A program made the position numbers and the translations under genes. Below the pieces are notes generated by a model, which saw only the letters and a list, made by a program, of their open reading frames with translations, was not told the DNA's origin and made no database searches. A stretch of 64,000 bases of DNA from Psychrobacter jeotgali (GTDB lineage: Bacteria; Pseudomonadota; Gammaproteobacteria; Pseudomonadales; Moraxellaceae). This document shows positions 10,766 to 31,403 of this stretch, in pieces (positions within the stretch are counted from its first letter, which is position 1; each line of letters opens with the position of its first letter). The stretch is taken from NCBI RefSeq assembly GCF_904846315.1, contig NZ_CAJHAF010000001.1, positions 2,232,001 to 2,296,000 on the forward strand, read 5' to 3'.

Positions 10766-10819
10766 ATTAATCCTAGACGTGTAAAAAGAGCCATGGTTAA
10801 CCACTATATTAAATGGGGC

Positions 10820-12919
10820 TTATTCTGTTTTCAGGGGTTTATCCAGTGGCACATTATATAAACGTAGCGCTTCTTTCATCACATTATGAAAGACTGGCGC
10901 TACTGTTAAACCGGCATAAATCTGGCTACGAGGGTCTTCGATTAACATCACCCCGACCAATCTTGGGTTAGACGCGGGTGCCATCCCCGCAAAGACGTTA
11001 CGGTATTGATCGCTATAATAACCGCCATCAGGATTGATACGGCGCGAAGTACCAGTCTTGCCTGCCACCCGGTAACCGTCAATAGCGGCAGCTTTTGCGG
11101 TACCGCCTGGCTCGGTGACCGCCTCCAACATCTGTACAATAGACATGGCTTGCTCACGCGCCATAATGCGTTTACTAGGCAGAGGCTTGTCGGTTTTGAT
11201 CAAGGTTAAGGGATGCATGACCCCGCCTGCACCTAGCGCTGCATAAGCCTGCGCAACCTGTGCTAATGTCACTTGTAGACCATAGCCATAACTGACCGTC
11301 GCACGACGAGCGGTTTCTTTCTCTTTGGGAGTAACCACCAGCCCACTACCCTCACCCGGGAACTGTAACGGGGTCTTACTACCAAAGCCAAATTGTTTTT
11401 GCATATTGGTGATGGCATCCGGCGGTAATGACAAAGCAATCTTGGTAGAGGCGACGTTACTGGACTTCTGTAACAGCGTTGCCATATTAATCGTACCGAG
11501 ATTATTGTGATCACGAATAGTATAGCCGCGCACCCGAATGGAGCCCGGATTGGTATCGATCAGCGAGTTTGCAGTATATTTTCCAGAATCTAAAGCCGCC
11601 GCTACGGTAAAAGGCTTCATCACCGAGCCGGGCTCAAACACATCAAGTAGGGCGCGGTTACGCTGATTCTCGCCGGTCATCTCATTAAGATTGTTGGAGT
11701 TAAATGACGGCCAAGTTGATAACGCCAACACCTCACCGGTCTGTACATCCACAATCATACCGGTTGACCAACGGGCTTGTTGTAAACGCCCTGCCTTTTC
11801 TAGCTCCTTATAGAGCAAATACTGCAAGCGTGAATCAATGGTCAAGGCTACATCTTGACCGGGCACTTCAGGCTCTAGCTGCTTGATCTCTTTTAAGCTA
11901 TTTTGTCTGGCATCTTTTAGGATTAGAACCTTACCATCTTCCCCTGCTAATATTTTTTCGAACTGACGCTCAATTCCTGCACGCCCTTCATAACCGCCCT
12001 CGGGATCATTAGCATTTTGCCCCATAAAGCCTAGTAGTTGAGAGTTGGGCTGCGGCTGCGGATAATAGCGCTGGAAGAAGTTTTTCTCGTAAACTCCAGG
12101 AAAGTTAAGCGAGCTGACACTTTGGGCAATTTCAGGAGTGACTTTATTAAGTAGGGGTAGATAGTGCGATCCCGGGCCTGAAGGTAGAGCCGCTTTGACT
12201 ACCTCTTCATTAGTAAAATCAATACTGTCATCAATAGCTGCCGCTTTTTTTAACTCTGCGACTGGGATATTAGCTGCCGCTGCCAAAATAGTCAGATCCA
12301 TATTCTCAAGGCGCTTTTTTACCCGAGCTTGTAGTTGCGGCTGATCAGGATTTTCAATTCTGATACGATTAAGCTCGTAGTATTCTTGGGCATAATCGTG
12401 CGGGCTAAAAGAAACCGTCGCTAGCGGAGCACTAACCGCAAGTGGCAGCTGATTACGATCAGTAATCATACCGCGATACGAGGTTTGCGTGCGTACACTG
12501 GTAATCAGCTCGTCACCTTTATCTTGATAAAACTTAGCATTAGCTACTTGTATGTAATAGGCTCGACCGATAAGCAGCGCAAGCATAATCAGCGCCAAGC
12601 CCCAAATCATCCGAAAGCGATTTTTATCATACTCAAAACCACCACGTGAAGAAGCACCAGACGCTTTATTAAAAATGGCTTTTTTACGGTTTTTGACACT
12701 GGTATAAGCGCCTTCAGTTTCATGGTTTTTTAGACGTCCGAATAGCTTAGCTGAGCGATCTTTAGCTTTGTTTTTTGCACCCGACGCCTTATCGGCATTT
12801 TTATTAGCAGATTTGGCAGTGCTGGCTCGGCGTAAGGGCTTAATAACTTTGCCGCTTGCTGCTTTTTTGTTATTGGCGTCATCTTTACCTTTGGGGCTCG
12901 CTGGCTTTTTATTACTCAT
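10820..12919 (-). CDS. ftsI: Septal peptidoglycan transpeptidase FtsI (PBP3)
   Basis: A 699-residue class B penicillin-binding protein. One membrane helix (about residues 105-120) is followed by the PBP dimer domain and the transpeptidase domain with catalytic SVMK (432-435), SSN (486-488) and KTGT (621-624). It crosslinks septal peptidoglycan with FtsW, FtsL and FtsB. The unusual part is a roughly 100-residue cytoplasmic extension before the helix, rich in Lys, Ala, Ser and Asn; the E. coli protein has only about 20 residues there. The start codon overlaps the ftsL stop by 4 nt (ATGA), indicating coupled translation. Confidence 0.96.
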   Translation of the reverse strand: MSNKKPASPKGKDDANNKKAASGKVIKPLRRASTAKSANKNADKASGAKNKAKDRSAKLFGRLKNHETEGAYTSVKNRKKAIFNKASGASSRGGFEYDKNRFRMIWGLALIMLALLIGRAYYIQVANAKFYQDKGDELITSVRTQTSYRGMITDRNQLPLAVSAPLATVSFSPHDYAQEYYELNRIRIENPDQPQLQARVKKRLENMDLTILAAAANIPVAELKKAAAIDDSIDFTNEEVVKAALPSGPGSHYLPLLNKVTPEIAQSVSSLNFPGVYEKNFFQRYYPQPQPNSQLLGFMGQNANDPEGGYEGRAGIERQFEKILAGEDGKVLILKDARQNSLKEIKQLEPEVPGQDVALTIDSRLQYLLYKELEKAGRLQQARWSTGMIVDVQTGEVLALSTWPSFNSNNLNEMTGENQRNRALLDVFEPGSVMKPFTVAAALDSGKYTANSLIDTNPGSIRVRGYTIRDHNNLGTINMATLLQKSSNVASTKIALSLPPDAITNMQKQFGFGSKTPLQFPGEGSGLVVTPKEKETARRATVSYGYGLQVTLAQVAQAYAALGAGGVMHPLTLIKTDKPLPSKRIMAREQAMSIVQMLEAVTEPGGTAKAAAIDGYRVAGKTGTSRRINPDGGYYSDQYRNVFAGMAPASNPRLVGVMLIEDPRSQIYAGLTVAPVFHNVMKEALRLYNVPLDKPLKTE

Positions 12920-17539: not shown

Positions 17540-18580
17540 ATGTTACCTACTTATTCGCCGCAGCGCCGCCCTTCTTGGCGTGGTGTGCTTGCAGGCCTCG
17601 TTATGGGACTCATAGTAGTCATGGCGATGATTGCTATTGCTTTGGTTTTAAGCTCTTTTTTACCTTTTGATTTAAAAGGCAGCAGCATCGCTGGTGGTAT
17701 CTATGCCGCTATTACCGCTCTAGTTAGTGCTTATGTGGCGGGTTATTTTGCAATCAAATACTCTGCGCCTGAAGCTTTATTCGGCGATGGCACTGACATC
17801 GATCCAAAAGACGCTAACTTAACGGGCATGTTAACTGCCGCTTTAATCGTCTTATTTACTACGTTTTTTACTATAAGCAGTGCGACTGGTATCCTAGCAT
17901 CAGCCGGTAATGTCGTTGGTGGTACGGTGAGTACCGTAGCTAAAACTGCAGGCGGCGTAGCAACAGCAGGCGCTACCGCAGTAGGTACCGCAGCCCAAGA
18001 CAGTACCGTCCAGCAGAAAGCTCAAGAAGCCTATCAGCGGGTATCAGGCAACATCAGCCGTGAAGATGTACGCGCTATGGTTGCTAAGAACACCCAAAAC
18101 TTAAGTGAGCAGCAACTGGCAGCGGTTTCAGGTGTGCTAGAAAATATCGTTAATGAAACTAAGAGCGATGTTGCTAACTTAGACTTTACTGATATGAACA
18201 CTTGGCGCAACATTGATGAGTATGCTAAGCAGCGTATGGCATCAATCCAACAAACTCTAGAAGGTCCTGAGTTTATTACTCGCCTACAACAGCAGGGTCT
18301 AACTGAAGCACAAGCGCTTGAAGTACGTACTGAAGTAAGCCAGTCGTTTAACGAGTATAAAATGAAAACTGAGCAATATATCGCTCAAACTCGTCAATCG
18401 GTTGAACAGGCTGCGCAGCAAGCTGAAGATATCGCTCGTAAAGCTGCTTTATACACTGGTCTATTCTGGTTAATCAGTACCATCCTAACCTTTATCGCCG
18501 CTACTATGGGTGCTAAAAATGCAGCGACAACTTATCGCTTAGATAAGCCTATCGTAACTTGGGGTGACAACGTACGCTAA
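17540..18580 (+). CDS. Membrane protein of unknown function with long helical middle region
   Basis: I do not recognise a named family. The 346-residue protein has hydrophobic helices at about residues 16-40, 49-73, 95-122 and 302-326. Between the third and fourth are a Gly/Ala/Val-rich stretch (about 122-152) and a Gln/Glu-rich helical region (about 153-300) that looks amphipathic or coiled-coil. The C-terminus is short and polar. The start has an AAGGA site about 6 nt upstream. It is followed by a strong terminator, so it forms its own transcript. The arrangement suggests an inner-membrane protein with a soluble helical loop; no function can be assigned. Confidence 0.85.
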   Translation: MLPTYSPQRRPSWRGVLAGLVMGLIVVMAMIAIALVLSSFLPFDLKGSSIAGGIYAAITALVSAYVAGYFAIKYSAPEALFGDGTDIDPKDANLTGMLTAALIVLFTTFFTISSATGILASAGNVVGGTVSTVAKTAGGVATAGATAVGTAAQDSTVQQKAQEAYQRVSGNISREDVRAMVAKNTQNLSEQQLAAVSGVLENIVNETKSDVANLDFTDMNTWRNIDEYAKQRMASIQQTLEGPEFITRLQQQGLTEAQALEVRTEVSQSFNEYKMKTEQYIAQTRQSVEQAAQQAEDIARKAALYTGLFWLISTILTFIAATMGAKNAATTYRLDKPIVTWGDNVR

Positions 18581-18627
18581 ACCAAGCGGTTAAATAACCC
18601 ATAGCTAAAGAGCTATTATTAATAAAC

Positions 18628-18660
18628 AAAACGCCCAATCTTTAAAAGATTGGGCGTTTT
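18628..18660 (+). terminator. Rho-independent terminator between convergent genes
   Basis: AAAACGCCCAATCTTT and AAAGATTGGGCGTTTT form a near-perfect hairpin with T and A runs at both sides, so it can serve both the membrane protein gene (+) and the EamA gene (-). Confidence 0.9.
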
Positions 18661-18704
18661 GCTGTTCAGTGGATAACTCTTAGTATAACAAGCAGATCAA
18701 ATTA

Positions 18705-19598
18705 TCACTTAACTAATTTTCTTATCGATAAATTTAAAGATAAATAAGTACCGAACAATATCACTACCGAGCCTACAATCGCAAAAGTATCTAAAGCCTC
18801 ACCTAATAAAATATATCCAAATATTATCGCAAAAATCGGTATCACCAAAGTAATACTGGTGGCACGCATTGGGCCAATATTTTTGATCAATTGATTCATA
18901 AAGATAAGGGCAATAGCGGTAGAGAACACTCCGATACAAATCACCGAACCCCAAGCTTGTAAGCTGATACTCTTGCCATAAGGGAACTCATATAGCCCAA
19001 TAGGGAGCATCACCATACTGGCAATAATAATCGAACCGGCGGTGATAGGTATCGGTGAGAGCTCTTGCAAATAGTTCTTGGTGATATTTGCGCCCGTTGC
19101 ATAACCAACACAGCCTAACAAGGCATAACCCATCGGTAGCAATGCTGCGCTCAAATCTGAGCTTTGTCCGCTAAATAGATTCTCGCTCATGAGAATGACT
19201 ACGCCTATAATGCCTATTATCAAGCCCAAAATCTGCTTTTTTGATAACTTATCATTAAAAAAGGTACTGGCAATAAAGCCGCTCATCATGGGTACCGAAG
19301 CATTGAGCACCGCTAGTACCCCAGCGTTTACCGACTGCGCTGCAAATGAGAATAAAACAAAAGGAATAGCGGTGGAGAATAAGCCAACCAGCGTCAGCAG
19401 CTTCCAGTGCGCTTTAATACCGCGCCGATTGTTTGGATTTAGCAATATAAAAACCAGCATCGTAAGGCCGGCGAATATCACCCGCAAACTGGCAAAAGCC
19501 ATAGAGCCAAACTCGGGCACCCCTACCCGGTAAAAGATAAAGGAGAGCGACCACATAAAGGACAGGGCAAAAAAGGTTATTAGGTCACGTTGGGTCAT
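18705..19598 (-). CDS. EamA/DMT-family transporter
   Basis: A 297-residue protein with ten hydrophobic helices and the two EamA repeats typical of the drug/metabolite transporter superfamily; the second repeat ends in the usual GEALDTFAIVGSVVILFGTYLS pattern. Substrates of this family range from amino acids to metabolites and drugs, and cannot be told here. It is convergent with the membrane protein gene and divergent from the LysE-family gene. Confidence 0.88.
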   Translation of the reverse strand: MTQRDLITFFALSFMWSLSFIFYRVGVPEFGSMAFASLRVIFAGLTMLVFILLNPNNRRGIKAHWKLLTLVGLFSTAIPFVLFSFAAQSVNAGVLAVLNASVPMMSGFIASTFFNDKLSKKQILGLIIGIIGVVILMSENLFSGQSSDLSAALLPMGYALLGCVGYATGANITKNYLQELSPIPITAGSIIIASMVMLPIGLYEFPYGKSISLQAWGSVICIGVFSTAIALIFMNQLIKNIGPMRATSITLVIPIFAIIFGYILLGEALDTFAIVGSVVILFGTYLSLNLSIRKLVK

Positions 19599-19758
19599 TG
19601 TTAACTCTATTGGACAAATGAGCTTCTACTACGTCATTTAAACGGTGAGTGCTCAATTATTAAAATAGGGTGATGATAACTTTTTAATCGCTTTAGGGGT
19701 GGTGTTTTTTTGTGTTTAAGACTGGAGTAGAATAACCTCTAGAGTGTCAATCATCTAT

Positions 19759-19779
19759 AGGGTCTGTTGAACATTCAAA
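19759..19779. repeat. Short dispersed repeat (AGGGTCTGTTGAACATTCAA)
   Basis: The 21-bp sequence recurs with one change (A for G) at 34245-34265, where it begins a larger inverted-repeat element. Here it stands alone in the divergent intergenic region before the LysE gene and may be the trace of a lost element or an insertion-sequence end. Confidence 0.55.
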
Positions 19780-19834
19780 TCTGAAAAACTTTTGCGGCGT
19801 AGAAATGGCGTAAAGAGGTAAGGGAGTTTTGGCT

Positions 19835-20488
19835 ATGTTTGGTATTGAGAACTATCTAGGATTTATCGTCGCTGCTATGTTGTTGAACCTGACGCCCGGG
19901 ACAGATAGCATGTACATCATCACCCGTAGTATCTCACAAGGGCAAAAAGCGGGGGTTTATTCTGTATTGGGTATTGTCTCCGGCATCTTAGTGCATACGC
20001 TACTGGCGGCGCTGGGGTTGTCTATAATATTGGCCAACTCTCCCCTAGCCTTTATGATCGTCAAATATATCGGTGCCGCCTATTTGTGCTATCTGGGCTT
20101 CAAGATGTTAGTCCTTAACTCAGCGCCTCTGATAGCTAATAATTTGCCAGAAAACAACCCTCATACGGCTGCTAAGTCGTCAAGTTATGGGAAAATATAC
20201 CAGCAAGGGGTATTGACCAATACTTTTAATCCCAAAGTTGCTTTGTTTTTCTTAGCTTTCTTTCCGCAGTTTATTGATCCTAGCTATGCTTATAGCACCT
20301 TATCGTTTTTGATTTTAGGGCTTACCTTCGCTACCACCGGCTTGATATGGTGTTTATGTTTGGCACTATTGGCCGCCCGGTTTAGTCAACGCTTACGAGA
20401 AAACCCGGCTATCGAAACCATTTTGAACAAAATAAGCGGGATAGTATTTGTTGGCTTGGGTATTAAACTGTTGACTGAAAAAGGGTGA
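19835..20488 (+). CDS. LysE/RhtB-family amino-acid exporter
   Basis: A 217-residue, six-helix protein with the family N-terminus (NLTPGTDSMYIITRS, the LysE-type GPD-like motif) and the NTFNPKVALFFLAFFPQF block. Members export basic or neutral amino acids such as lysine, homoserine or threonine. ATG 19835 is preferred because AGGGAG at 19821-19826 stands 8 nt before it; a TTG two codons upstream (19829) is less likely. A second LysE-family gene lies at 45249, so the substrate specificities may differ. Confidence 0.9.
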   Translation: MFGIENYLGFIVAAMLLNLTPGTDSMYIITRSISQGQKAGVYSVLGIVSGILVHTLLAALGLSIILANSPLAFMIVKYIGAAYLCYLGFKMLVLNSAPLIANNLPENNPHTAAKSSSYGKIYQQGVLTNTFNPKVALFFLAFFPQFIDPSYAYSTLSFLILGLTFATTGLIWCLCLALLAARFSQRLRENPAIETILNKISGIVFVGLGIKLLTEKG

Positions 20489-20609
20489 ATAACCATAAAT
20501 CAGCCATAAAGAATCCTAACTGGCTTTTTTTAATATCCCAGATTTTAGTAACCTATCTTTAATATCCTTTCTTTAATATCCAAGCCTTATTATCTAAATG
20601 ATCTGCTTA

Positions 20610-21158
20610 CTATTTAGTCGTGCTAATCTTACTTGGATTCATCTTTGGTGACCAAGGCAATCCTGAGTTTTGCCAGCCATTCATTAGACGAAAGCCTTTA
20701 TTCTTACCCTCTTCTATCGTATCTCCCTGAAAGCCGTGATCGACATATTTGACGTTGGTAAAGCCTTGACTCAATAAGTAGTCGGCGCTAGGCTTACCAC
20801 GAGCAGAGCCCGAACGGCACATAGTGACCACTAACGCATCTTTGTCTAGACCTTTAGCTTTAAGTGCGGCTTCGACTTCATTAGCAAAGTCTGGATTAAG
20901 TGGCATCGCAAAAACCGCCTTGTCTTCGTTGAGCTCAGTGCGCTTGACGGTTCTAAACGGAATATTGATGTCGACCGCATCGGTAAAGCCGATAAACATA
21001 ATCTCCACTGGGTCTCTGACATCAACGAATAATATCTCATCAGCATCTTGTTGCACCATATTCCAGACAGATTCTGGAGTCACAGATAATGCGTCTTTGG
21101 CTATAGCATGAGTACTTAGCCCAAACAGCAGCAACAATGACAATATAATAGCTTTCAT
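20610..21158 (-). CDS. Periplasmic rhodanese-like protein
   Basis: A 182-residue protein with a signal peptide (about residues 1-20, cleavage after HAIA) and a single rhodanese domain: DVRDPVE in the first half and the active-site loop TMCRSGSARG with the catalytic cysteine. Rhodaneses move sulfane sulfur, but in exported single-domain forms the role is often unknown. The ATG has a GGAG...AGGAA ribosome region just upstream. It is divergent from a membrane-anchored glutaredoxin-like gene 222-255 nt away, which suggests shared thiol/sulfur chemistry in the envelope; this is inference. Confidence 0.88.
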   Translation of the reverse strand: MKAIILSLLLLFGLSTHAIAKDALSVTPESVWNMVQQDADEILFVDVRDPVEIMFIGFTDAVDINIPFRTVKRTELNEDKAVFAMPLNPDFANEVEAALKAKGLDKDALVVTMCRSGSARGKPSADYLLSQGFTNVKYVDHGFQGDTIEEGKNKGFRLMNGWQNSGLPWSPKMNPSKISTTK

Positions 21159-21413
21159 TTCCTACTCCATATATTATTATTTAAAATAACATTATATTAA
21201 TGATTATAATAAATAGATATCCTACAATTAATAGAGTAAGAGTGCAATAGAGAGGTGATATTTTAGAGATCACAATCTTGCGCAGATTAGATAGGTTGAG
21301 CCCGATAACTATTTAACTTGGCTGATTAACTTTACTGATTGAACCAAATGTAATATCTAAGATGCTATCATTAGTCTTTATTGAAAAAGGGTTTAAAAAG
21401 TAAAGATAAGTCT

Positions 21414-21764
21414 ATGAGTTTTATAAAAATATTTTCGTTCGGGCTTGGTGCAGTTGTGTTAATCGCCTGTATCTACCTTATAAATGCCAGTACCGTCGTT
21501 CCAGAATCTGTCGCCTGTGACCCATCAGCGAGCAATGACATTGTTTTGTATGGTACCGTCTGGTGCCCCTATTGCGAGCAGACCAGACAGTTGCTCGCCT
21601 CGCACAATGTCGACTACTGTGAATACGATATAGAACGCTCGGCTGAGGGCTTTCGACAATATGAGAGCCTAGGCGGTGGCGGCGTGCCCTTGATGCTATT
21701 TAATGGTGAAGTGATAAGAGGGTATAACAAACCTGAGATTGAATGGCAGGTGCAGAATCAGTGA
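21414..21764 (+). CDS. Membrane-anchored glutaredoxin-like protein
   Basis: The frame opens at a TTG (21381), but ATG 21414 (MSFIKIFSFG) gives a normal N-terminus: one hydrophobic anchor or signal (about residues 5-24) followed by a glutaredoxin fold with the redox motif WCPYC, the GGGGVPLMLFNGEVIRGYN segment (cis-Pro and glutathione-site region) and no other domain. At 116 residues it is a small single-domain thiol-disulfide protein probably facing the periplasm. Two further cysteines (in VACDPS and DYCEYD) are present. Function in the cell is not known. Confidence 0.82.
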   Translation: MSFIKIFSFGLGAVVLIACIYLINASTVVPESVACDPSASNDIVLYGTVWCPYCEQTRQLLASHNVDYCEYDIERSAEGFRQYESLGGGGVPLMLFNGEVIRGYNKPEIEWQVQNQ

Positions 21765-21775
21765 TTTGCGATTGC

Positions 21776-22900
21776 TTAAACCCGAACCAACTGCATCAGC
21801 GGCTCAAAGGAATAAAGCGTAGAGGTTCTGCCAGCGCCTTCTTCGACTATTTTTAAAATGTTATTTTCTTCTAATACCTTACTAAACCTAGCTGCCGTAG
21901 AGACAGGAATACCGCTTTTACTAGTGAAGCTAGTGTTCCTAAAAACAGGATTGGTAAAAATGAACTCTAGGGCATTTAATGACCATTTTGATGACAGCAA
22001 ATCGCTAAACTCTCTTTTCATAGTCTCATACAGCTGACCAATCTGCTCAGCAATCTCTAGATTATTGGTGGCTTGCTCCTTAACTGCTTCCAGAAAAAAT
22101 ACGCACCAATTATCCCAATTGCCAGTCTCTGAGACTTCTCGCATCAAATCAATATATCTATCTTTGTTCTCTTCAAAATAACCACTGATATAAAAATGCG
22201 GCGCAGAAATCGTCTGTGCTGACCATAATATTAAGGTAATCAACATTCTACCAATTCTGCCATTGCCATCTTGAAAGGGATGCAAAGCTTCGAACTCTAA
22301 ATGACTGACGGCCGTTTTTAGCAGTATTGGTGACGAGTCGTTATTAATATAATCAAACAAATCATCCAAGCCGCTTTGCAGTTTTTCAGGACTAATCGGC
22401 ACAAACAATATACTTTTTTTCGAACGGTCAGCCAAATAGTTTTGTTCGTTTTTGACCTGACCTGGTGACTTTCTCGCGCCTCTACCCTTTGATAATAGCT
22501 GCTCATGCATAGTTTTTATCAAAGATTTGCTGAGAGGATAACCATCGCTCATCGCCTGCTGTACATTTTTTAGCGTACGTTGATAAAGAATAGTTTCGAT
22601 AATATCACTACGAACCTGCGCCGAATGCTCTTTGCCGTCACCATAGTCTGCCTCGTACTGCATAATCTCATCTAAGGTACTGATGGTGCCTTCCATACGT
22701 GAAGAGATGACCGCTTCTTGATTACGCAGTGGTGCCAGCAAAATCTCACTGTTGTGCATGCTTTTGAGCATTTGGTCAAAGCGAGATATCGCTTCAGTCG
22801 CGCCTATCATAGCGTCCATAATAACTTGATAATTGATAGACTGAGGGGGAAAGCCGCCATAATGATAATGTACGGCGTGTTCTAAATTGAAATCGGTCAT
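21776..22900 (-). CDS. Fic-family AMP-transferase with built-in inhibitory motif
   Basis: A 374-residue protein. The catalytic Fic motif is complete: HPFQDGNGRIGR at residues 207-218, with His207 as the general base. An N-terminal inhibitory helix carries SSRMEG (66-71), the class II [S/T]xxxE[G/N] motif whose Glu blocks ATP binding, so the enzyme is self-restrained. A helix-turn-helix-like C-terminal region (TSKSGIPVSTAARFSKVLEENNIL, about 325-348) suggests DNA binding. Fic enzymes usually transfer AMP from ATP to Ser, Thr or Tyr of a target protein. The target is unknown. Repeats of TTGTCTCTCAAA directly upstream suggest self-regulation. It is divergent from the STAND gene. Confidence 0.9.
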   Translation of the reverse strand: MTDFNLEHAVHYHYGGFPPQSINYQVIMDAMIGATEAISRFDQMLKSMHNSEILLAPLRNQEAVISSRMEGTISTLDEIMQYEADYGDGKEHSAQVRSDIIETILYQRTLKNVQQAMSDGYPLSKSLIKTMHEQLLSKGRGARKSPGQVKNEQNYLADRSKKSILFVPISPEKLQSGLDDLFDYINNDSSPILLKTAVSHLEFEALHPFQDGNGRIGRMLITLILWSAQTISAPHFYISGYFEENKDRYIDLMREVSETGNWDNWCVFFLEAVKEQATNNLEIAEQIGQLYETMKREFSDLLSSKWSLNALEFIFTNPVFRNTSFTSKSGIPVSTAARFSKVLEENNILKIVEEGAGRTSTLYSFEPLMQLVRV

Positions 22901-22911
22901 CTTTATATACC

Positions 22912-22993
22912 TTGTCTCTCAAAATGAGCGTTTTTTGATTCACAAGTTGTATTGTGGCTGCTATTTGAGAGACAAATTGGTTTGTTTCTCAAA
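22912..22993. promoter_or_regulatory. Three-copy operator-like repeat upstream of fic
   Basis: TTGTCTCTCAAA (22912-22923) is inverted perfectly at 22964-22975 (TTTGAGAGACAA), and a third copy in the first orientation with one mismatch (TTGTTTCTCAAA) lies at 22982-22993. The first copy is 11 nt before the fic start codon, so a bound protein would cover the promoter or ribosome site. Confidence 0.65.
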
Positions 22994-23191
22994 AATGGCG
23001 GAAAGTGAAAGACTAAATGGATTACTTCTTGAATTGAGTGGTTTTGGAAAGACAATATAGTTTTTTCAGTCTAATATTACAAAAGTTCGATAAGATTAGA
23101 GGCGATAATAAATCTGAGATTGTACATCACAATTAGTTTATCGGAGTATACTAATTTTAAACTATCAAATTACTTACATATGGATCTTTAA

Positions 23192-26100
23192 ATGGCAAAA
23201 AAAATAATCTTGGTTCACGGATTGGGTGGCATTGCAGATGGTACTTGGGGGAAATTCCCACACTTACTAGAAAGAGACAACGATATAGATTTTAATATTA
23301 TTTCTCTTGGTTATGAATCTCCAAGCCTATGGAAATTCTGGAAGCGTGCTCCAAGTATCTTAAATATTGCTGACGGAGTTCTTACAGATATTAAAGCTCG
23401 ATTTGATATAGAGAATGATGAGATAATTTTAGTTGGTCACAGTTTAGGTGGAATTATAGTAAAGAAAGTCCTTCTTTTATTGCACAATCGACAGACCTCC
23501 CACAAAATTTTTAAAGTATGCTTTTTTGATGTTCCACATGATGGCTCAGGTTATGCTAACGTTGGAAAGTATCTTTCTTTTAGAAATCGCCATTTAAAGA
23601 GTTTGACTCGAGATTCGAGTGAACTAGATGATATAAATGACCAGTGGATAAGAAGTAATTTAAATAGCTCATTAGTTATATTAAGCATTATCTCTGCTAA
23701 TGATGACATTGTATCTTCTTCTAGCTCAAAAAGTATTTTTAGAGAACATGAAGTTGAAACTATAAACAATGTTAATCATATTACAATCGTCAAACCTGAA
23801 AGTGAAGAGTCCTTATCCTATATAGTATTTAAAAAATTTATTTTAAAAAAAAATTCCGTTAATAGATATAGAAATCTAGCCTCTCGTGACCTTGAGGACT
23901 GGAAAAATATAGAAAGAAAACATAATTACCATTACGTAAGCGATGAGGCAAGAAAAAATGATTTTGAAGCTCTTACTACTGCACTAGAGTTAGATCAAGC
24001 TATGGTGCGGTTAACAGGCGCATCTGGGCTAGGTAAAACACGCTTATTACTAGAAGCTATTGAGGCCTCTACCTCTATTGATGATTCCTGTGTGCTTATT
24101 TTCGATGCGTCTGAATACGATACAACCATTAGAGAAAGTATTAGAACAATGGTTGAAGATCGCGTTCATGGCCTAGTTATTATTGAAAATTGTAATATTA
24201 ATTTGCACGAACAAATGACGAAAGAAATCAACAAAACAGAGTGCTTACTAAAAGTTGTCACTGTTGGTTACTCTGATGAACAAGTAGACAACTCTATTCA
24301 TATTAAACTATCTCCTTTAAATAATGATTCTATAAAACAAATTCTATTGCCAATACTGGTCGGAATGGATTCAGGTGAGGTTGATCGAGTAGCTCAATTT
24401 GCTCAAGGCTACCCGTTGATGGCGACACTTATAGCTGAGCAATATCAAAAAGAAGGCCAATTACTTGGCTCTATTGAAAGTAGTTCTGTAGTAAGAAAGC
24501 TGATCGATGGTGACGGAGGTATAACAGATGCAGAAAAAGAAATGTTATCTGCTTGTTCATTGTTTGATGTTTTTGGTACAGAAGAAGGTATAGCTGGTGA
24601 AGAAGCTAAGTATATTGCAGAAAATGTTGCTGGATGGAACCTGAAGACATTTGATAAAGTAATAAAAGAGTTCACTCGCCGGCAGATTATAAATCGTGCA
24701 GGAAGATACGCTAGGCTAGTTCCTAAGCCACTTGCTTTGACGTTAGCGTCTGAGTGGTGGGAAGAGGCATCTTATGAACGCAAACAACAACTAATTGATA
24801 CTATGCCTGAATCTCTCATGCAAAGCTTTTGTACGCAAGTAGCATATCTTGATAGCCAGCCAAGCGTTCAACGATTTTCAGACCAATTATTTGGAGGAGC
24901 TAGCCCTTTTGTCCAAGCGGAAGCGTTGCTTACAGAGAAGGGTTCGAAACTCTTCCGCGCATTTGTCGAAGTAAATCCTGAATCAACTAGCAACGCCCTA
25001 TATCATACTTTATCTACATGCAGTCACGAAGAGCTTGAGGCTATAGATGGAAATACTAGAAGAAACTTAGTCTGGGGATTAGAAAAACTGTGCTTTCATG
25101 CTGATGTATTTGAAAAGTCAGCATGGTGTATGCTACTGCTTGCATCAGCCGAAAATGAAAATTGGAGCAACAATGCGACCGGTATGTTTGCTCAGTTATT
25201 TCGAGTAAATCTATCTGGAACACAAGCAAAGCCCAAAATTCGCTTCGATATATTAAAGCAAGCTATTGATATTAACCAACCCAATATCGATATAGTGGTT
25301 CTAGAGGCTTTAAGTCAAGCAATTGGTACTTACGGAGGCACACGAACAGTTGGTGCTGAATATCAAGGAACTAAAGCTGCGCTTGAAGAGTGGCGACCAG
25401 AGCTATGGCAAGAAATTTTTGATTTCTGGAACACGGCTTTTGATTTAATGTTAGTTCTGTTTGAACGAGGCGATGCTCAAAAAGATAAGGTTCTATCAGT
25501 TATAGGTCATTCAATGAGAGGTTTTATTGCTCAAGGTCGTATTGAAATGCTGGATACGGCGATAAAAAAGATAGTAGATATCAATGGTCGTTATTGGCCA
25601 GCAGCTCTAACCAGTATTAAAAATACTTTAAAGTATGATTCAGAAGGTATGAATCAAGAAGTAAAAGATACGCTAAACAGTTGGTTATATCTGTTAAGCC
25701 CTCAAGATTCTGAGTTACCAGAGAAATTAAAGATTATTGTAAGTAACCCTCCTTGGGAGCATTATGAGGATGAGAATAACCAGTACATTGATGTAGCTGC
25801 GGAGAAAGCTAAAGCACTTGCAACAGAGCTTTCTAATAATATTGAGGAACTTTTACCTCATATCGGCTTATTATTGCAAGGTGAGCAGAAGCAGTCCTAC
25901 GCTTTTGGATATCAACTAGCCTACGACTTAACTAATATTACTCCAATAATTGATTTGACATTAAAATGCTTAGTTAATATTGAACAGCCTGACTCACGTT
26001 TAATTTTAGGGTTATATCGAGGACTCTTTGAGCAGTCACCAGAACTATGGCAAGAAAATATTGATCGATTAATTTCAGATGATTTGTTAGTCCACCTTTA

Positions 26101-27088
26101 CCCTGATTTTATACGAACTGGCGATATTCATAAAGCACACTTAGACACGTTATTAAAGCTCATTCAACGTGAAATATTAGCGCCAAATAGCGCGAATGTT
26201 CTCAGCTATGGCAGTGTAACTAATAGTGTAGAGCCCAATGTTATAGCTAATTTCTGCTTACAGCTTTCAAAGTTGGGAGAGCAAGCAAGTTGGACAGCGC
26301 TCAATGTGATCTATATGTATTGCTTTAGCAATGCAGATAGTATTAAAGAGTTGCGTTGTACGCTTAAGCAATTAATTATTACTGTACCTTTAAATAATAA
26401 ATTGAATAATATACATGTAGATATTCATCACTGGCACGATTTAGCCGAAAAGATTATGAATGTGGATGATCCTGAATTTGCTGTTGCACTATCTAATAAA
26501 GTCATAAATGATTCTGAGAATGGTTTAAATCATGGTGATACATGGTCCTATATCAAGCCTCTGATACTAAGCCTAATGAATGATTACAATGATACGCTTT
26601 GGCCATTATTTAGCGAGGCTATTATTCAAGCAGACTTAAGAAAGCGATATTGGCTAAAACAACTCTTAGGTCGGACAAATTCCTTGGTAAGCAATACACC
26701 AAGTATGCTATCTGTAATACCTGTAAATAATATTATGGATTGGTGCAAAGCACATCCAGAGATTGCGCCAGTTTTTACAGCTAGTTGTTTAAATGTTCTG
26801 GAAACGATCAATAACAAATTACAGCCAACCCAATTGTTTGTAACATTGCTTGAAAATTTTGGTGGGGATCAGAGGGTTGCTAATTCGCTTGAAGCAAATA
26901 TAAGCTCTCGTGGTTGGTCAGGCTCACTCGTTCCTTACTTAGAGTCTGATAAAACTGCACTTACTCCTCTTCTCAATCATGAAAACATTCATGTAAGGCA
27001 TTGGGTTAAAGACCATATTGCTTATATTAATCGCCAAATAACTGAAGAGTCGAAGCGAGATGAAGAACATGGTTTTGGGTTTTATTGA
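23192..27088 (+). CDS. Alpha/beta-hydrolase-STAND NTPase-helical repeat protein (candidate antiphage NLR-like protein)
   Basis: A 1298-residue protein in three parts. Residues 1-215 form an alpha/beta hydrolase of the SERAC1/PGAP1-like lipase type: VHGLGG (8-13), nucleophile elbow GHSLGG with Ser84, a VPHDGSG loop (114-120), and candidate acid D171/D172 and base H196. Residues about 250-450 form a STAND/NACHT-like P-loop NTPase: Walker A GASGLGKT (276-283), Walker B-like LVIIE (328-332) and a GYP motif (406-408). The rest, to 1298, is helical and likely a superhelical sensor region. This effector-NTPase-sensor order is that of Avs/NLR-type immune proteins. Base composition is AT-richer than the flanking genes, suggesting transfer. 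Start: ATG 23192 follows a weak ribosome site and a 3-codon mini-ORF (23180-23191). The fold assignment is firm; the antiviral role is inference. Confidence 0.85.
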   Translation: MAKKIILVHGLGGIADGTWGKFPHLLERDNDIDFNIISLGYESPSLWKFWKRAPSILNIADGVLTDIKARFDIENDEIILVGHSLGGIIVKKVLLLLHNRQTSHKIFKVCFFDVPHDGSGYANVGKYLSFRNRHLKSLTRDSSELDDINDQWIRSNLNSSLVILSIISANDDIVSSSSSKSIFREHEVETINNVNHITIVKPESEESLSYIVFKKFILKKNSVNRYRNLASRDLEDWKNIERKHNYHYVSDEARKNDFEALTTALELDQAMVRLTGASGLGKTRLLLEAIEASTSIDDSCVLIFDASEYDTTIRESIRTMVEDRVHGLVIIENCNINLHEQMTKEINKTECLLKVVTVGYSDEQVDNSIHIKLSPLNNDSIKQILLPILVGMDSGEVDRVAQFAQGYPLMATLIAEQYQKEGQLLGSIESSSVVRKLIDGDGGITDAEKEMLSACSLFDVFGTEEGIAGEEAKYIAENVAGWNLKTFDKVIKEFTRRQIINRAGRYARLVPKPLALTLASEWWEEASYERKQQLIDTMPESLMQSFCTQVAYLDSQPSVQRFSDQLFGGASPFVQAEALLTEKGSKLFRAFVEVNPESTSNALYHTLSTCSHEELEAIDGNTRRNLVWGLEKLCFHADVFEKSAWCMLLLASAENENWSNNATGMFAQLFRVNLSGTQAKPKIRFDILKQAIDINQPNIDIVVLEALSQAIGTYGGTRTVGAEYQGTKAALEEWRPELWQEIFDFWNTAFDLMLVLFERGDAQKDKVLSVIGHSMRGFIAQGRIEMLDTAIKKIVDINGRYWPAALTSIKNTLKYDSEGMNQEVKDTLNSWLYLLSPQDSELPEKLKIIVSNPPWEHYEDENNQYIDVAAEKAKALATELSNNIEELLPHIGLLLQGEQKQSYAFGYQLAYDLTNITPIIDLTLKCLVNIEQPDSRLILGLYRGLFEQSPELWQENIDRLISDDLLVHLYPDFIRTGDIHKAHLDTLLKLIQREILAPNSANVLSYGSVTNSVEPNVIANFCLQLSKLGEQASWTALNVIYMYCFSNADSIKELRCTLKQLIITVPLNNKLNNIHVDIHHWHDLAEKIMNVDDPEFAVALSNKVINDSENGLNHGDTWSYIKPLILSLMNDYNDTLWPLFSEAIIQADLRKRYWLKQLLGRTNSLVSNTPSMLSVIPVNNIMDWCKAHPEIAPVFTASCLNVLETINNKLQPTQLFVTLLENFGGDQRVANSLEANISSRGWSGSLVPYLESDKTALTPLLNHENIHVRHWVKDHIAYINRQITEESKRDEEHGFGFY

Positions 27089-27241
27089 TAGCTGTAAAAT
27101 TATTCATCTAAACTTAAAAAAGTATAGATATTGCCTGTGATATCATTAGTTATGGTTACTTTTTTTGAAAGCTTATCATTAACCTCACATTTTCCAAAAA
27201 CTCTTTATTAGAAATAGTATATTCACCTTAACCACTTAAAA

Positions 27242-27271
27242 AAAGCCCAATCACAAAGATTGGGCTTTCTC
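27242..27271. terminator. Bidirectional hairpin terminator between the STAND gene and acnA
   Basis: AAAGCCCAATC and GATTGGGCTTT pair around a 5-nt loop, with A runs before and a T-rich stretch after, fitting termination of acnA (-) and possibly of the STAND gene (+). Confidence 0.75.
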
Positions 27272-27299
27272 TAATGCTAAACTAACTCTTACTCAACCA

Positions 27300-30086
27300 T
27301 TAAGCAGCATCTTTACTCTCAGCTGCTAGCTGACGTAACACATAGTGTAATACCCCGCCATGACGTACGTATTCGCGCTCTTTTGGCGTTTGCAAGCCAA
27401 CGTTGACTTCGAAGTTTTCCTCTGAGCCGTCAGCACGAGTGGCAGTGACTTTGGCGGTTTTGCTCTCACCATTATCAAGACCACTAATACTAATCACTTC
27501 TGAACCATCAAGATTATAGGTGTCTGCGTTCTCGCCATCTTTGAAGGTCAATGGCAACACGCCCATGCCCACTAGGTTCGAGCGGTGAATACGCTCGAAT
27601 GAGGTAGTCAATACCGCTTTTACACCAAGCAGAATCGTACCCTTTGCTGCCCAGTCACGGCTAGAACCCGAACCATACTCTGCTCCGCCTAATACCACTA
27701 GCGGACGGTTGTCTTCTTTATACTTCATTGCTGCGTCATAGATGGCCATTTCTTCGCCATCTTCTAATTTAGCTTTGTCATCTTTGAAGTAGTAAGTATA
27801 GCCACCTTCTTTCCCTTTCATCATTTGGTTCTTGATACGAATGTTGGCAAAGGTACCACGAGTCATGACGGCATCATTACCACGGCGTGAGCCATAGCTA
27901 TTGAAATCAGCTTCCATAACACCACGCTCTTGCAAATATTTACCGGCTGGCGAGTCGGCATCTATATTACCCGCTGGCGAGATATGGTCAGTAGTGATTG
28001 AATCACCGAATAAGCCTAGGATACGAGCACCTTCGATATCGGGGATACCTTCTGGTTCCATGGTCATACCATCAAAGAACGGTGGGTTCTTGATGTAAGT
28101 AGACCCTTCATCCCATGGATACAGCTGGCTATCAGACGAGCTAATAGCATTCCATGCTTTACTACCATCGAACACTTCACCGTAGTTTTTGCGGAACATG
28201 TCAGCGTCAATGTTATTAGCAATCAACTCGTTAATCTCTTCAGAAGTTGGCCAGATGTCTTTTAGGAATACATCATTGCCGTCCTGATCTTGACCCAGTG
28301 GCTGCGTCGTCAAGTCGATATCGACCGTACCTGCCAATGCATAAGCAACAACCAATGGTGGTGAAGCCAAGTAGCTTGCTTTAACGTGCGAGTGGATACG
28401 ACCTTCAAAGTTACGGTTACCCGATAACACCGCCGCAGCAACTAGATCATTTTCTTCAATACCATCTTCAATGGCGTCAAGTAGTGGCCCTGAGTTACCG
28501 ATACAAGTGGTACAGCCATAACCAACTAGATAGAAACCTGTTTTTTCTAGCTCATCCATCAGCTTAGTTTTTTCAAGATAGTCAGTAACAACCTTTGAGC
28601 CTGGTGCTAGTGAAGTTTTAACCCAAGGCTTGGCAGTCAGCCCTTTTGCCGCTGCTTTTTTAGCAACCAGTCCGGCACCAATCATTACTGCTGGGTTTGA
28701 GGTGTTAGTACATGAGGTAATCGCCGCAATAACGACTGAACCATCGCGTAATTGATGTTTTTTATCATTGATATTAACTTCAGAGAAAACGTTTGGCTTG
28801 GCATAAAGTCTGTCGGCTTGCTCTTGTTCGCCGCCTTCTTGATCAAAGCGTACTTTGCCTTCGACTTCTGATTTGCGATCTTTAGTCATTTTTTCTAAGG
28901 TTTCGCCAAACTTTTCGTGCATATCAGATAGATTGATCCGCTGCTGTGGCAGATTAGGACCGGCAAGTGCTGGCTGTACCGTAGACAGGTCTAAATGCAG
29001 GTTACTTGAGTAAGTCGCTGCTGGCGTATCAGCATCATGCCACATGCCTTGTGCCTTAGCATACTTTTCAACCAACTCAATCTGATCTTCTTCACGGCCT
29101 GATAAGCGCAAGTAATCAATCGCCATTTGGTCGATCGGAAAGATACCGCAGGTTGCACCATATTCTGGTGACATATTAGCAATCGTAGCACGATCCGCTA
29201 GCGGCATGCTGTGTAAGCCTTCACCATAGAATTCGACAAACTTACCTACCACACCATGTGCACGTAGCATCTCAACCACACGCAATACTAAATCGGTAGC
29301 TGTGACACCTTCTTTTAATTTACCGGTCATCTCAAAGCCGACCACTTGTGGAATCAGCATTGATGAGGGCTGACCTAGCATCGCTGCTTCCGCTTCGATA
29401 CCGCCGACACCCCAACCAAGGACGCCGATACCATTAATCATGGTGGTATGACTATCCGTACCGAAAACCGTGTCAGGATAAGCGGTGAGCTCGCCATCAA
29501 CGTCTGCTGCCATCACCACCCGCGCTAAATACTCAAGGTTAACTTGATGCACAATACCGGTCGCTGGCGGTACTACCACAAAGTTTTCAAAAGCATTTCT
29601 GCCCCAATGTAGGAACTCATAACGCTCATTGTTACGTTTAAATTCGATCTTTTCGTTTAGATCAAGTGCGTCTTCACGGCCATAAGCATCGACCTGCACC
29701 GAGTGGTCAACGACCAACTCACTTGGAATAAATGGGTTAATTTGTTCGGCTTTACCGCCAAGCGCAACCACCGCATCTCGCATCGCAGCCAAATCAACAA
29801 CCGATGGCACCCCAGTGAAATCCTGTAGCACTACACGGGCGGGCATGAAGGCAATCTCTTTTGAAGCTTCGGCGCCGGCATCCCAATTGGCAACCGCTTC
29901 GATATGGTTTTTACCAACCGACTGACCGTCATCTTCGTTACGTAATAGGTTTTCTAATACGACTTTCATACAGTACGGTAGCGTATTAATATTGTCATAT
30001 TTTTCAGCAAGTTTGGGCAGGCTATAGTAAGCATGCTCCTTGCCGTCGACACTAATGGTGTCCTTTACATTGAAAATATCACTCAT
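27300..30086 (-). CDS. acnA: Aconitate hydratase AcnA
   Basis: A 928-residue monomeric aconitase/IRP1-type enzyme that interconverts citrate and isocitrate in the TCA cycle. Cluster ligands are in SCTNTSNPAVM and GCTTCIGNSG; substrate motifs include VFGTDSHTTMINGIGVLGWGVGGIEAEA, GSRRGNDAVMTRGTF and the swivel-domain EYGSGSSRDWAAKG. The start ATG has a GGAAG site 5 nt upstream. AcnA is the stress-stable form in many Proteobacteria. It stands alone, with a 315-nt upstream region containing a strong inverted repeat. Confidence 0.97.
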   Translation of the reverse strand: MSDIFNVKDTISVDGKEHAYYSLPKLAEKYDNINTLPYCMKVVLENLLRNEDDGQSVGKNHIEAVANWDAGAEASKEIAFMPARVVLQDFTGVPSVVDLAAMRDAVVALGGKAEQINPFIPSELVVDHSVQVDAYGREDALDLNEKIEFKRNNERYEFLHWGRNAFENFVVVPPATGIVHQVNLEYLARVVMAADVDGELTAYPDTVFGTDSHTTMINGIGVLGWGVGGIEAEAAMLGQPSSMLIPQVVGFEMTGKLKEGVTATDLVLRVVEMLRAHGVVGKFVEFYGEGLHSMPLADRATIANMSPEYGATCGIFPIDQMAIDYLRLSGREEDQIELVEKYAKAQGMWHDADTPAATYSSNLHLDLSTVQPALAGPNLPQQRINLSDMHEKFGETLEKMTKDRKSEVEGKVRFDQEGGEQEQADRLYAKPNVFSEVNINDKKHQLRDGSVVIAAITSCTNTSNPAVMIGAGLVAKKAAAKGLTAKPWVKTSLAPGSKVVTDYLEKTKLMDELEKTGFYLVGYGCTTCIGNSGPLLDAIEDGIEENDLVAAAVLSGNRNFEGRIHSHVKASYLASPPLVVAYALAGTVDIDLTTQPLGQDQDGNDVFLKDIWPTSEEINELIANNIDADMFRKNYGEVFDGSKAWNAISSSDSQLYPWDEGSTYIKNPPFFDGMTMEPEGIPDIEGARILGLFGDSITTDHISPAGNIDADSPAGKYLQERGVMEADFNSYGSRRGNDAVMTRGTFANIRIKNQMMKGKEGGYTYYFKDDKAKLEDGEEMAIYDAAMKYKEDNRPLVVLGGAEYGSGSSRDWAAKGTILLGVKAVLTTSFERIHRSNLVGMGVLPLTFKDGENADTYNLDGSEVISISGLDNGESKTAKVTATRADGSEENFEVNVGLQTPKEREYVRHGGVLHYVLRQLAAESKDAA

Positions 30087-30401
30087 GATAGCTTCCTTAT
30101 CTCATTTATGGAGTGTGATGAATTTATTGTTATAACGCTGGCTTTAGGCTTGCTATATTTAGCAACTGCTTCGTTATGCTGATAATCGCTATGCTACTGG
30201 CTATACTAACTATAAGCACTATATTCATAACGCTTCACTAATAACTACTTATTAACAAAGGTTATCAATAAAGGAGTAGCGATTAACAGTAACGCACTAC
30301 TACCATAACAAATAAGCTTCACTTTGTTAACGCCAACTGGTTAACAAATGGTGGCAGAATCGTAACTAGAACCTATACTTGGTGATATGACATTAGTGGG
30401 T
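30087..30401. other. acnA upstream region with a 9-bp-arm inverted repeat
   Basis: Gene-free AT-rich stretch. TTTGTTAAC (30323-30331) and GTTAACAAA (30340-30348) form a perfect inverted repeat with an 8-nt spacer, about 240-260 nt before the acnA start; a half-site-like TTAACAAAGGTTA is at about 30250-30262. It also contains several CTATA-rich near-repeats (30180-30225). The inverted repeat may be a regulator site; no coding frame is convincing. Confidence 0.55.
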
Positions 30402-31403
30402 TTAGCGTGCTCTACGCTGGCGCCCACTCCGAAAGACGTAGCTGTCCTTATAAAACTCAGCATTAACGTTTTCCGCCCAAAAGTGCGGCACACCTAAAAT
30501 TGGCAGTGGTGCTAAATAGCGTGGTGTGACCTCATTTTTTGACAACAACTCATCCATATAGTCCGCAAGGGTAGCGTCCAAAAACGTCATGCGCTCAGAT
30601 GTGGATAAGGCAAAAAAGTCTTGGCTCACGTTAATGACCACACTATGGGCGCATAACGGCTTGCGCGGCTGTACCAATTGCTCAATGAGTGCATGCCCAA
30701 AGATATAAACTGCAGCTTGAGCGTGTGAGTTTGGCTGCTTTGGATCGTCCCATTGAGCACGAGTCTTGACCAAACTTCCTTGCCAATCAAAATCAATCAA
30801 TGCCTTGCCAATGCTGGGATTTGAGGTGACCAAAATGGCACCGTTCTCATCAAATACCGTAATAGTATCCCGAACCCGCCCCCGACTCTCGCCTATACCT
30901 TGCTGGGCAATCTCTAGCATGTGATAGTAATTAAGTAGCGCTTTGGTCTTGGGAAAGGTCAGCCAAATACTGCCGTTAAACAAGTCATGCAAATTATCAC
31001 GAGTCGGAATATTACCGGTAGTGGCGATAAAGTGCTCATACGCCTCGCCCTCAGGTAGTGCATTTTGCGAGACAAACTTTAGCGTATGTGCTTGCTGTTC
31101 TTTGGTTGGCTTAGTGCTCGGCAATAGCGTTTGCTGCTCTGTGCTTTGCTGCTTTAATGCGCTGTTTAAAACCTTAGCGATAGTATCTAGTGATTCATGT
31201 GGTTCATTGTCATGAGCTGAAATATCTGCTTGCTGATTGACCTCACTCCGTTGTTTTACGGTTTTACTCAAGTCATTTAGCTGACTTAAATGACATAACC
31301 ACGGTGCTTGCCAGTCTATTTTAGCAAAGCTATCGTCAAGCGCTTTATTAACATTCGACAAATTTTTATCCTGGGTGTCATTAAGTAGATCAGAGGTGTT
31401 CAT
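30402..31403 (-). CDS. DUF3025 domain protein
   Basis: A 333-residue protein. The N-terminal ~110 residues are Asp/Gln/Ser-rich and probably disordered; the conserved DUF3025 domain follows, with HDLFNGSIWLTFPKTKALLN, a RGRVRDTITVFDENGAIL segment and the C-terminal PLPILGVPHFWAENVNAEFYKDSYVFRSGR. Function is unknown for the family. It is transcribed towards acnA, with a 315-nt gap between them, and is divergent from the YdjM-like gene. Confidence 0.82.
   Translation of the reverse strand: MNTSDLLNDTQDKNLSNVNKALDDSFAKIDWQAPWLCHLSQLNDLSKTVKQRSEVNQQADISAHDNEPHESLDTIAKVLNSALKQQSTEQQTLLPSTKPTKEQQAHTLKFVSQNALPEGEAYEHFIATTGNIPTRDNLHDLFNGSIWLTFPKTKALLNYYHMLEIAQQGIGESRGRVRDTITVFDENGAILVTSNPSIGKALIDFDWQGSLVKTRAQWDDPKQPNSHAQAAVYIFGHALIEQLVQPRKPLCAHSVVINVSQDFFALSTSERMTFLDATLADYMDELLSKNEVTPRYLAPLPILGVPHFWAENVNAEFYKDSYVFRSGRQRRAR

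Follow-up and report, generated by a model that had tools for sequence, protein, structure and literature searches.

The window considered here, a stretch of 64,000 nucleotides from Psychrobacter jeotgali (contig NZ_CAJHAF010000001.1, positions 2,232,001 to 2,296,000), contains an intact open reading frame (ORF) on the + strand, from an ATG at 23192 to a stop at 27088, that encodes an NLR-like protein of 1298 residues and that we consider a candidate anti-phage gene. The protein has a hydrolase-STAND-repeat order, all parts being encoded on the + strand. Residues 1-222 (23192..23857) constitute an effector of the alpha/beta hydrolase type, with S84 (codon 23441-23443) within a GHSLGG motif at residue 82, DVPHDGSG at 113, a probable catalytic acid at D171, adjacent to D172, and H196. 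Residues 233-548 (23888..24835) form an NB-ARC-like STAND module made up of a P-loop NTPase, a helical part and a winged-helix-like part, in which the Walker A motif GASGLGKT (residues 276-283, including K282; 24017..24040) is followed by LVIIE at 328 and GYP at 406. The remainder, from about residue 549 to 1298 (24836..27085), is a series of HEAT/ARM-like helical repeats and is the putative sensor. This ORF and its motifs had been described in an original prediction made without database searches, and both direct reading and an alignment of 112 hydrolase-type sequences longer than 1240 residues, the window protein among them, bear that description out.

In this alignment S84, H196, K282, G406 and P408 are each invariant (112/112), and because the catalytic and P-loop residues are retained across the 112 sequences, the motifs are not a matter of chance. 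The original prediction listed D171/D172; D171 is conserved in 107 of the 112 sequences and D172 in only 83, and hence D171 is the likelier of the two. The fold predicted for residues 1-222 is that of a phospholipase-like alpha/beta hydrolase, as seen both by structure comparison and in Pfam, where the N-terminus matches PGAP1 (E 8.2e-8) and DUF676 (E 2.1e-4), both past the curated cut-offs. The top fold match is Legionella PlaB (6zth, 6zti), about 4 Z units over the runner-up, and PlaB also ranks first in a profile sequence search with the effector. The chains of PlaB differ from the window protein in being only about 465-489 residues long, and the match is confined to the hydrolase part. Below PlaB come BlEst2 (21.5), TesA thioesterase (19.3), feruloyl esterase (18.7) and palmitoyl-protein thioesterase (18.3). 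We consider a phospholipase-like alpha/beta hydrolase to be a supported prediction for the effector.

The NTPase module falls below the Pfam cut-off (AAA_22, E 0.038) and its assignment rests on structure. Structure comparison predicts an NB-ARC-like switch, with a P-loop NTPase of STAND fold and a winged-helix part, and its structural matches are NB-ARC-type proteins, in agreement with the STAND fold that the original prediction had asked structure prediction to check. The NACHT family is absent from the Pfam list of the protein at E up to 1, a list from which HMMER drops most weak matches, so that a divergent NACHT module may have gone unlisted. The C-terminal part is predicted to be a HEAT/ARM-like helical array with a mean pLDDT (predicted local distance difference test) of 90.7. 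With a P-loop NTPase carrying a winged-helix part, an exchangeable N-terminus and C-terminal repeats, the protein is of the STAND/NLR kind in the broad sense.

The NTPase and C-terminal array match PD-Lambda-4_A (PDLC03991), the PADLOC model for PD-lambda-4 (Vassallo et al. 2022), with residues 261-1293 aligned to profile positions 226-1278 (E 1.5e-50). Profile positions 1-225 are left unmatched by the window protein, where the alpha/beta hydrolase occupies residues 1-222. Two relatives with nuclease-type N-termini (P0122 and L037) align to the profile from positions 4 and 3, so the front end of the model itself is nuclease-type; this front end has a conserved DgGeDGR...FQxKA pattern and a weak Pfam match to the Cap4 nuclease (E 0.011). 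Since a hydrolase stands in place of the nuclease-type N-terminus, we class the protein as a core-sharing variant and not as PD-lambda-4 proper, and it is probably, to judge from these alignments, a variant on the PD-lambda-4 core in which a hydrolase takes the place of the nuclease-type effector. PD-lambda-4 is said to be a two-gene system, and PADLOC lists no PD-lambda-4 partner gene among the four window neighbours scanned. The core match sharpens what had been proposed merely as a candidate anti-phage NLR, as the family is recorded as anti-phage. According to the accessible portion of the study behind the PD-lambda names, E. coli DNA was functionally selected for anti-phage activity and every candidate system lowered the plating of its selecting phage (PMC9519451), and the accessible portion of a review lists PD-lambda-4 from that selection, with a P-loop NTPase (PMC10952713).

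Relatives of the window protein carry different effectors on this core. Scanning one genome per species yielded 65 loci, to which viral contigs added 2. In 9 of these 67 the ORF is broken, short or cut off, and the effector count, made without them, covers 62 intact proteins, from 58 loci together with P0001, P0122, P0123 and P0124 (the window protein and three plasmid proteins). Their N-termini, grouped by linked sequence similarity with a Pfam scan on representatives only, are nuclease-like in 29, hydrolases in 24, TIR-like in 4, metallophosphatases in 3 and trypsin-like in 2, and among the representatives the metallophosphatase front end passes the Pfam cut-off. Nine nuclease-armed proteins nest inside the hydrolase-armed group in the 62-row tree of the shared core. 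The hydrolase label changes three times on this tree and at least twice on a 53-row tree from which the long branches P0124, L074, L056, L060, L063 and L071 were dropped, together with L068, L069 and L072, which lie near L071. Forcing the 23 hydrolase-bearing cores of the 53-row tree into one clade costs 81.5 log-likelihood units (approximately unbiased (AU) test, p 4.5e-10; the groups were defined by N-termini, and the first tree had already been seen before the test). As the hydrolase cores reject a single clade, the hydrolase has changed places on the core, and the trees indicate either two gains of it or one gain followed by replacement. An independent hydrolase gain in P0124 was set aside, as P0124 and L074 are long branches that are joined in the 62-row tree. 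The window protein shares 54% and 50% identity in two C-terminal parts with a nuclease-armed cyanobacterial protein. Since related cores are found in nature with different effectors, sensing by the core could be probed with a nuclease and then a lipase read-out.

The gene itself is present in one copy in its own genome and has no orthologue among the other 35 same-genus genomes (0/35; Psychrobacter sp. JB385, discussed below, is outside this sample), and G029 and G030 contain only remote partial matches of 21-22% identity. A class-wide search of 369 genomes (E up to 1e-30) gave matches in 8, the own genome included; the 7 others align only from residue 233 or later, so that none of the other 368 sampled genomes has a match to the hydrolase. 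A megablast search of E. coli genomes with the DNA of the Lelliottia gene, a mode that needs near-identical DNA, gave no match. In viral contigs, 2 of 18 candidate stretches encode relatives, both with nuclease-like N-termini. The gene is also AT-richer than acnA, as had been claimed, with a G+C content of 36.7% vs 46.5% (27.4% vs 42.4% at third codon positions).

Comparison with insert-free same-genus loci defines an inserted stretch (20490..27238, ends approximate) that contains rhodanese-like, glutaredoxin-like, Fic and NLR genes, with flank similarity stopping at about 20481-20496 on the left and resuming at about 27228-27258 on the right. The left anchor is a LysE-type exporter gene (19829-20488) and the right anchor is acnA (27300..30086, - strand; NCBIfam AcnA). 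Next to acnA is a remnant of the ancestral LysE/acnA intergenic region (27239..27299), recognized by direct reading and blastn, with a terminator-like inverted repeat (AAGCCCAATC...GATTGGGCTT) that is unlisted by a separate terminator scan. An acnA match is present in every one of the 40 genus genomes sampled, of which the own genome is one; in G014 it is at paralogue level only. The 3' flank of acnA was compared in 20 of the 40 genomes searched, and a LysE-type gene is on the window's side of acnA in 14, the other 6 being without that anchor. Of the 14 anchored genomes, 6 have a LysE-acnA gap of 94-111 bp that includes a terminator-like repeat; the gap of the other 8 measures 603-6873 bp and holds varied cargo. 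In Psychrobacter sp. JB385 the gap holds an 81% identical NLR and no other ORF of at least 80 residues. As judged by these flanks, the gap is a chromosomal integration hotspot of the genus (19829-30086 in the window, anchors included; L078-L097) that the NLR gene can occupy on its own, and the NLR gene is accessory and horizontally inserted. The folds, the genus survey and JB385 thus support the original proposal of an accessory, stand-alone protein with a lipase-like effector and the order effector, STAND, repeats, and the conservation at the same locus in related genomes that was to be expected of a housekeeping gene is not found.

Beside the NLR gene is a divergent gene for a SoFic-like Fic protein (21776..22900, - strand; PADLOC SoFic, E 5.4e-103), the adjoining Fic gene of the original prediction. 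It scores 149.7 bits with the NCBIfam SoFic model, below the 550-bit cut-off, and SoFic is listed as an anti-phage family in PADLOC. Relatives of this Fic protein with more than 60% identity are found among the 39 other genus genomes in G030 and G034 only, plus a split copy in G022. No restriction gene was recognized among the eight window neighbours scanned (17540-31403).

The surroundings of hydrolase-type relatives provide a wider defence context. A PADLOC scan at 1e-15 of the ORFs closest to 16 hydrolase-type loci (at most 8 per locus, 125 in all) matched 119 families, 25 of them listed, compared with 12 among 115 control ORFs, numbers that are inflated in that a single restriction or Zorya protein can hit a large number of models. 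The control ORFs come from 13 genomes, against the 16 loci, and represent gltX surroundings in 6 and contig starts in 7 (7 of 15 genomes have a gltX match at E up to 1e-100); the control list, capped at 125 ORFs, does not take in L113 and part of L112, the genome of L029 is not represented, and 10 ORFs of L103, the stretch with the JB385 copy itself, were removed. The control families each stem from one ORF and include DEDDh, BrxHI, DpdF, PDC-S48, PsyrT, SngC, subtilase and Cas3g. When large neighbours were scanned singly at 1e-60 for 9 of the 16 loci, named systems were confirmed at three, namely type I restriction (L031), Zorya with a truncated restriction subunit (L032) and PDC-S06 (L034). 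In addition, hsdM, hsdS and hsdR surround the hydrolase-type NLR gene of L042, which is outside the 16. The NLR gene is located between hsdS and hsdR in both L031 (7118-17099) and L042 (2875-12879), 3 bp and 1 bp separating it from these neighbours in L031, and L032 has a decayed copy of the same restriction operon beside the NLR gene, plus Zorya genes.

We propose, with a probability of about 0.7, that the window protein is of the PD-lambda-4 kind and acts alone as an NLR-like anti-phage protein, its effector being phospholipase-like; a role in defence as such is highly likely. The protein probably kills or stalls the cell on sensing a virus. In the resting cell the HEAT/ARM-like array would keep the NTPase closed until it binds a molecule that the phage has made or altered, and the NTPase would then exchange nucleotide and oligomerise. 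The hydrolases clustered in this way would switch on and cut membrane phospholipid or another acyl ester, and the infected cell would halt or die ahead of phage release. We infer sensing by the array, oligomerisation, the lipid substrate and the abortive outcome by analogy. Oligomerisation and lipid hydrolysis are favoured because of architecture and precedent, that is, the tripartite STAND plan and the phospholipases of CBASS, where phospholipase effectors occur. A long shot is that the PD-lambda-4 core is a general-purpose NLR chassis with repeated swaps of nuclease, phospholipase, TIR, metallophosphatase and protease, and that the lipase branch between hsdS and hsdR is a membrane-killing backup for when restriction is inhibited.

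Several points weigh against this proposal. The anti-phage role and the hydrolase activity of the window protein are predictions only, the repeat-array matches are below the level that would name a repeat family, and the relatives' N-termini of the TIR, trypsin-like and nuclease-like types do not reach the curated Pfam cut-offs. No relative was found in phage records by tblastn with the window protein and P0124. PADLOC, run on four window neighbours, picks out the Fic gene as the only defence-like one, the family counts around the relatives are inflated as noted above, and large neighbours at six loci (L010, L011, L028, L030, L033, L041) have no match at 1e-60. The effector has only 18% identity to PlaB, and structural likeness leaves the substrate unfixed, so that we give lipid as the substrate even odds. 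The same NLR-like defence protein might instead have a thioesterase, a small-molecule esterase or another serine hydrolase with a soluble target as its effector, since PlaB is followed in the match list by many alpha/beta hydrolases with other activities and both PGAP1 and DUF676 are broad families, but the clear lead of PlaB in the fold comparison and its first rank in the profile search make this rather unlikely.

The remaining alternatives concern what the protein responds to. The position of the L031 and L042 genes between hsdS and hsdR, the broken operon copy of L032 and a nuclease-armed relative from Pseudanabaena galeata near a phosphorothioation-associated gene would suit a guard of a restriction system or of DNA metabolism that fires on blocked restriction or disturbed DNA and does not sense phage directly. 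We consider such a guard improbable, as the eight neighbours scanned in the window include no recognized restriction gene and the JB385 gene has no other ORF of at least 80 residues with it in the gap. Plasmid records with relatives number 48, of which 21 are predicted to be conjugative, and fungal NLR proteins serve allorecognition, both of which would fit a conflict or recognition protein directed at plasmids, conjugation or kin; this is a quite improbable reading, however, given that the family has a recorded anti-phage member and that known anti-phage genes are near some relatives. A housekeeping regulator with a hydrolase domain could account for the conservation of catalytic residues over full-length relatives, but it deserves next to no credence and is already contradicted by the lack of an orthologue in all 35 other same-genus genomes, the empty site in relatives and the low G+C content.

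An anti-phage NLR with a phospholipase-like effector, as we propose, has counterparts in several known systems. Its NTPase and C-terminal array match the PD-lambda-4 model, which differs in its nuclease-type front end. The Avs (AVAST) proteins also have an effector, a STAND NTPase and a long sensor, and the Foldseek matches include Avs3 (E 5.9e-8). Yet none of the three families that PADLOC listed for the window protein at E up to 1 is an Avs model, and we take the PADLOC library to hold such models, so the Avs likeness that had been noted is probably one of domain plan only. In the accessible part of one source, Avs1-4 are triggered by terminase or portal (PMC12724215). The bNACHT proteins have the same tripartite effector-switch-sensor plan, going by the available text of PMC12169576, and differ in that the window protein has no NACHT in its Pfam list at E up to 1 and has folds that match NB-ARC-type proteins. 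Fungal NLRs, compared by architecture alone, have the same effector superfamily ahead of an NTPase switch, and the accessible part of PMC9815663 counts alpha/beta hydrolases as one of the four largest families of effectors in these NLRs, its Pfam profiles for their N-termini including PGAP1, DUF676 and Abhydrolase_6. The original view of a hydrolase as a rarer effector choice thus fails for the NLR kind overall. For bacterial NLR-like proteins, swaps of TIR, SIR2 and nuclease effectors are reported in what is available of PMC9122126. Hence hydrolase effectors in fungal NLRs, bacterial effector exchange and a PD-lambda-4-like core are already known. In the literature searched we did not meet the lipase-armed form of the core, its insertion as a single gene or its position within restriction operons: among the top matches listed no title or abstract deals with a hydrolase-armed PD-lambda-4 core, in a search whose coverage leaves out many subscription papers. 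The window protein would represent a bacterial single-gene counterpart to the hydrolase-armed fungal NLRs, on a core recorded as anti-phage.

Some further observations were made on the relatives and on the hotspot. Related cores carry metallophosphatase (L068, L070-L072), trypsin-like (L063, L069) or TIR-like (L059, L064, L065, L067) N-termini, and these non-nuclease, non-hydrolase cores are all from Bacteroidota except the clostridial L070, a short ORF that was classed by eye and excluded from the counts. In L056 (9173-13243, + strand) an MqsA/Xre-like helix-turn-helix (Pfam E 9.8e-15) precedes the nuclease-like part of a core relative, and the nuclease-armed relative on the Pseudanabaena galeata plasmid (L005, 5452-9204, + strand) is near a phosphorothioation-associated methyltransferase gene and an integrase. 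At the hotspot, G022 (L078) has the same rhodanese, glutaredoxin and Fic genes, and the place of the NLR, beside Fic, is taken by a gene (9878-12892, + strand) for a 1004-residue HD-CE plus GHKL-type ATPase protein, a candidate defence gene with no PADLOC match at E up to 0.01; the Fic copy of G022 (L078, 8441-9564, - strand) is split by stops into two ORFs that are 95% and 98% identical to the window Fic. Other cargo includes RlaP-type nucleotidyltransferases (L089), a recurrent unknown protein of 152-164 residues (L079, L080, L082, L085, L091), an unknown protein of 446 residues (L083) and, in L092, a 6.9 kb stretch with a VapBC-like pair recognized by eye.

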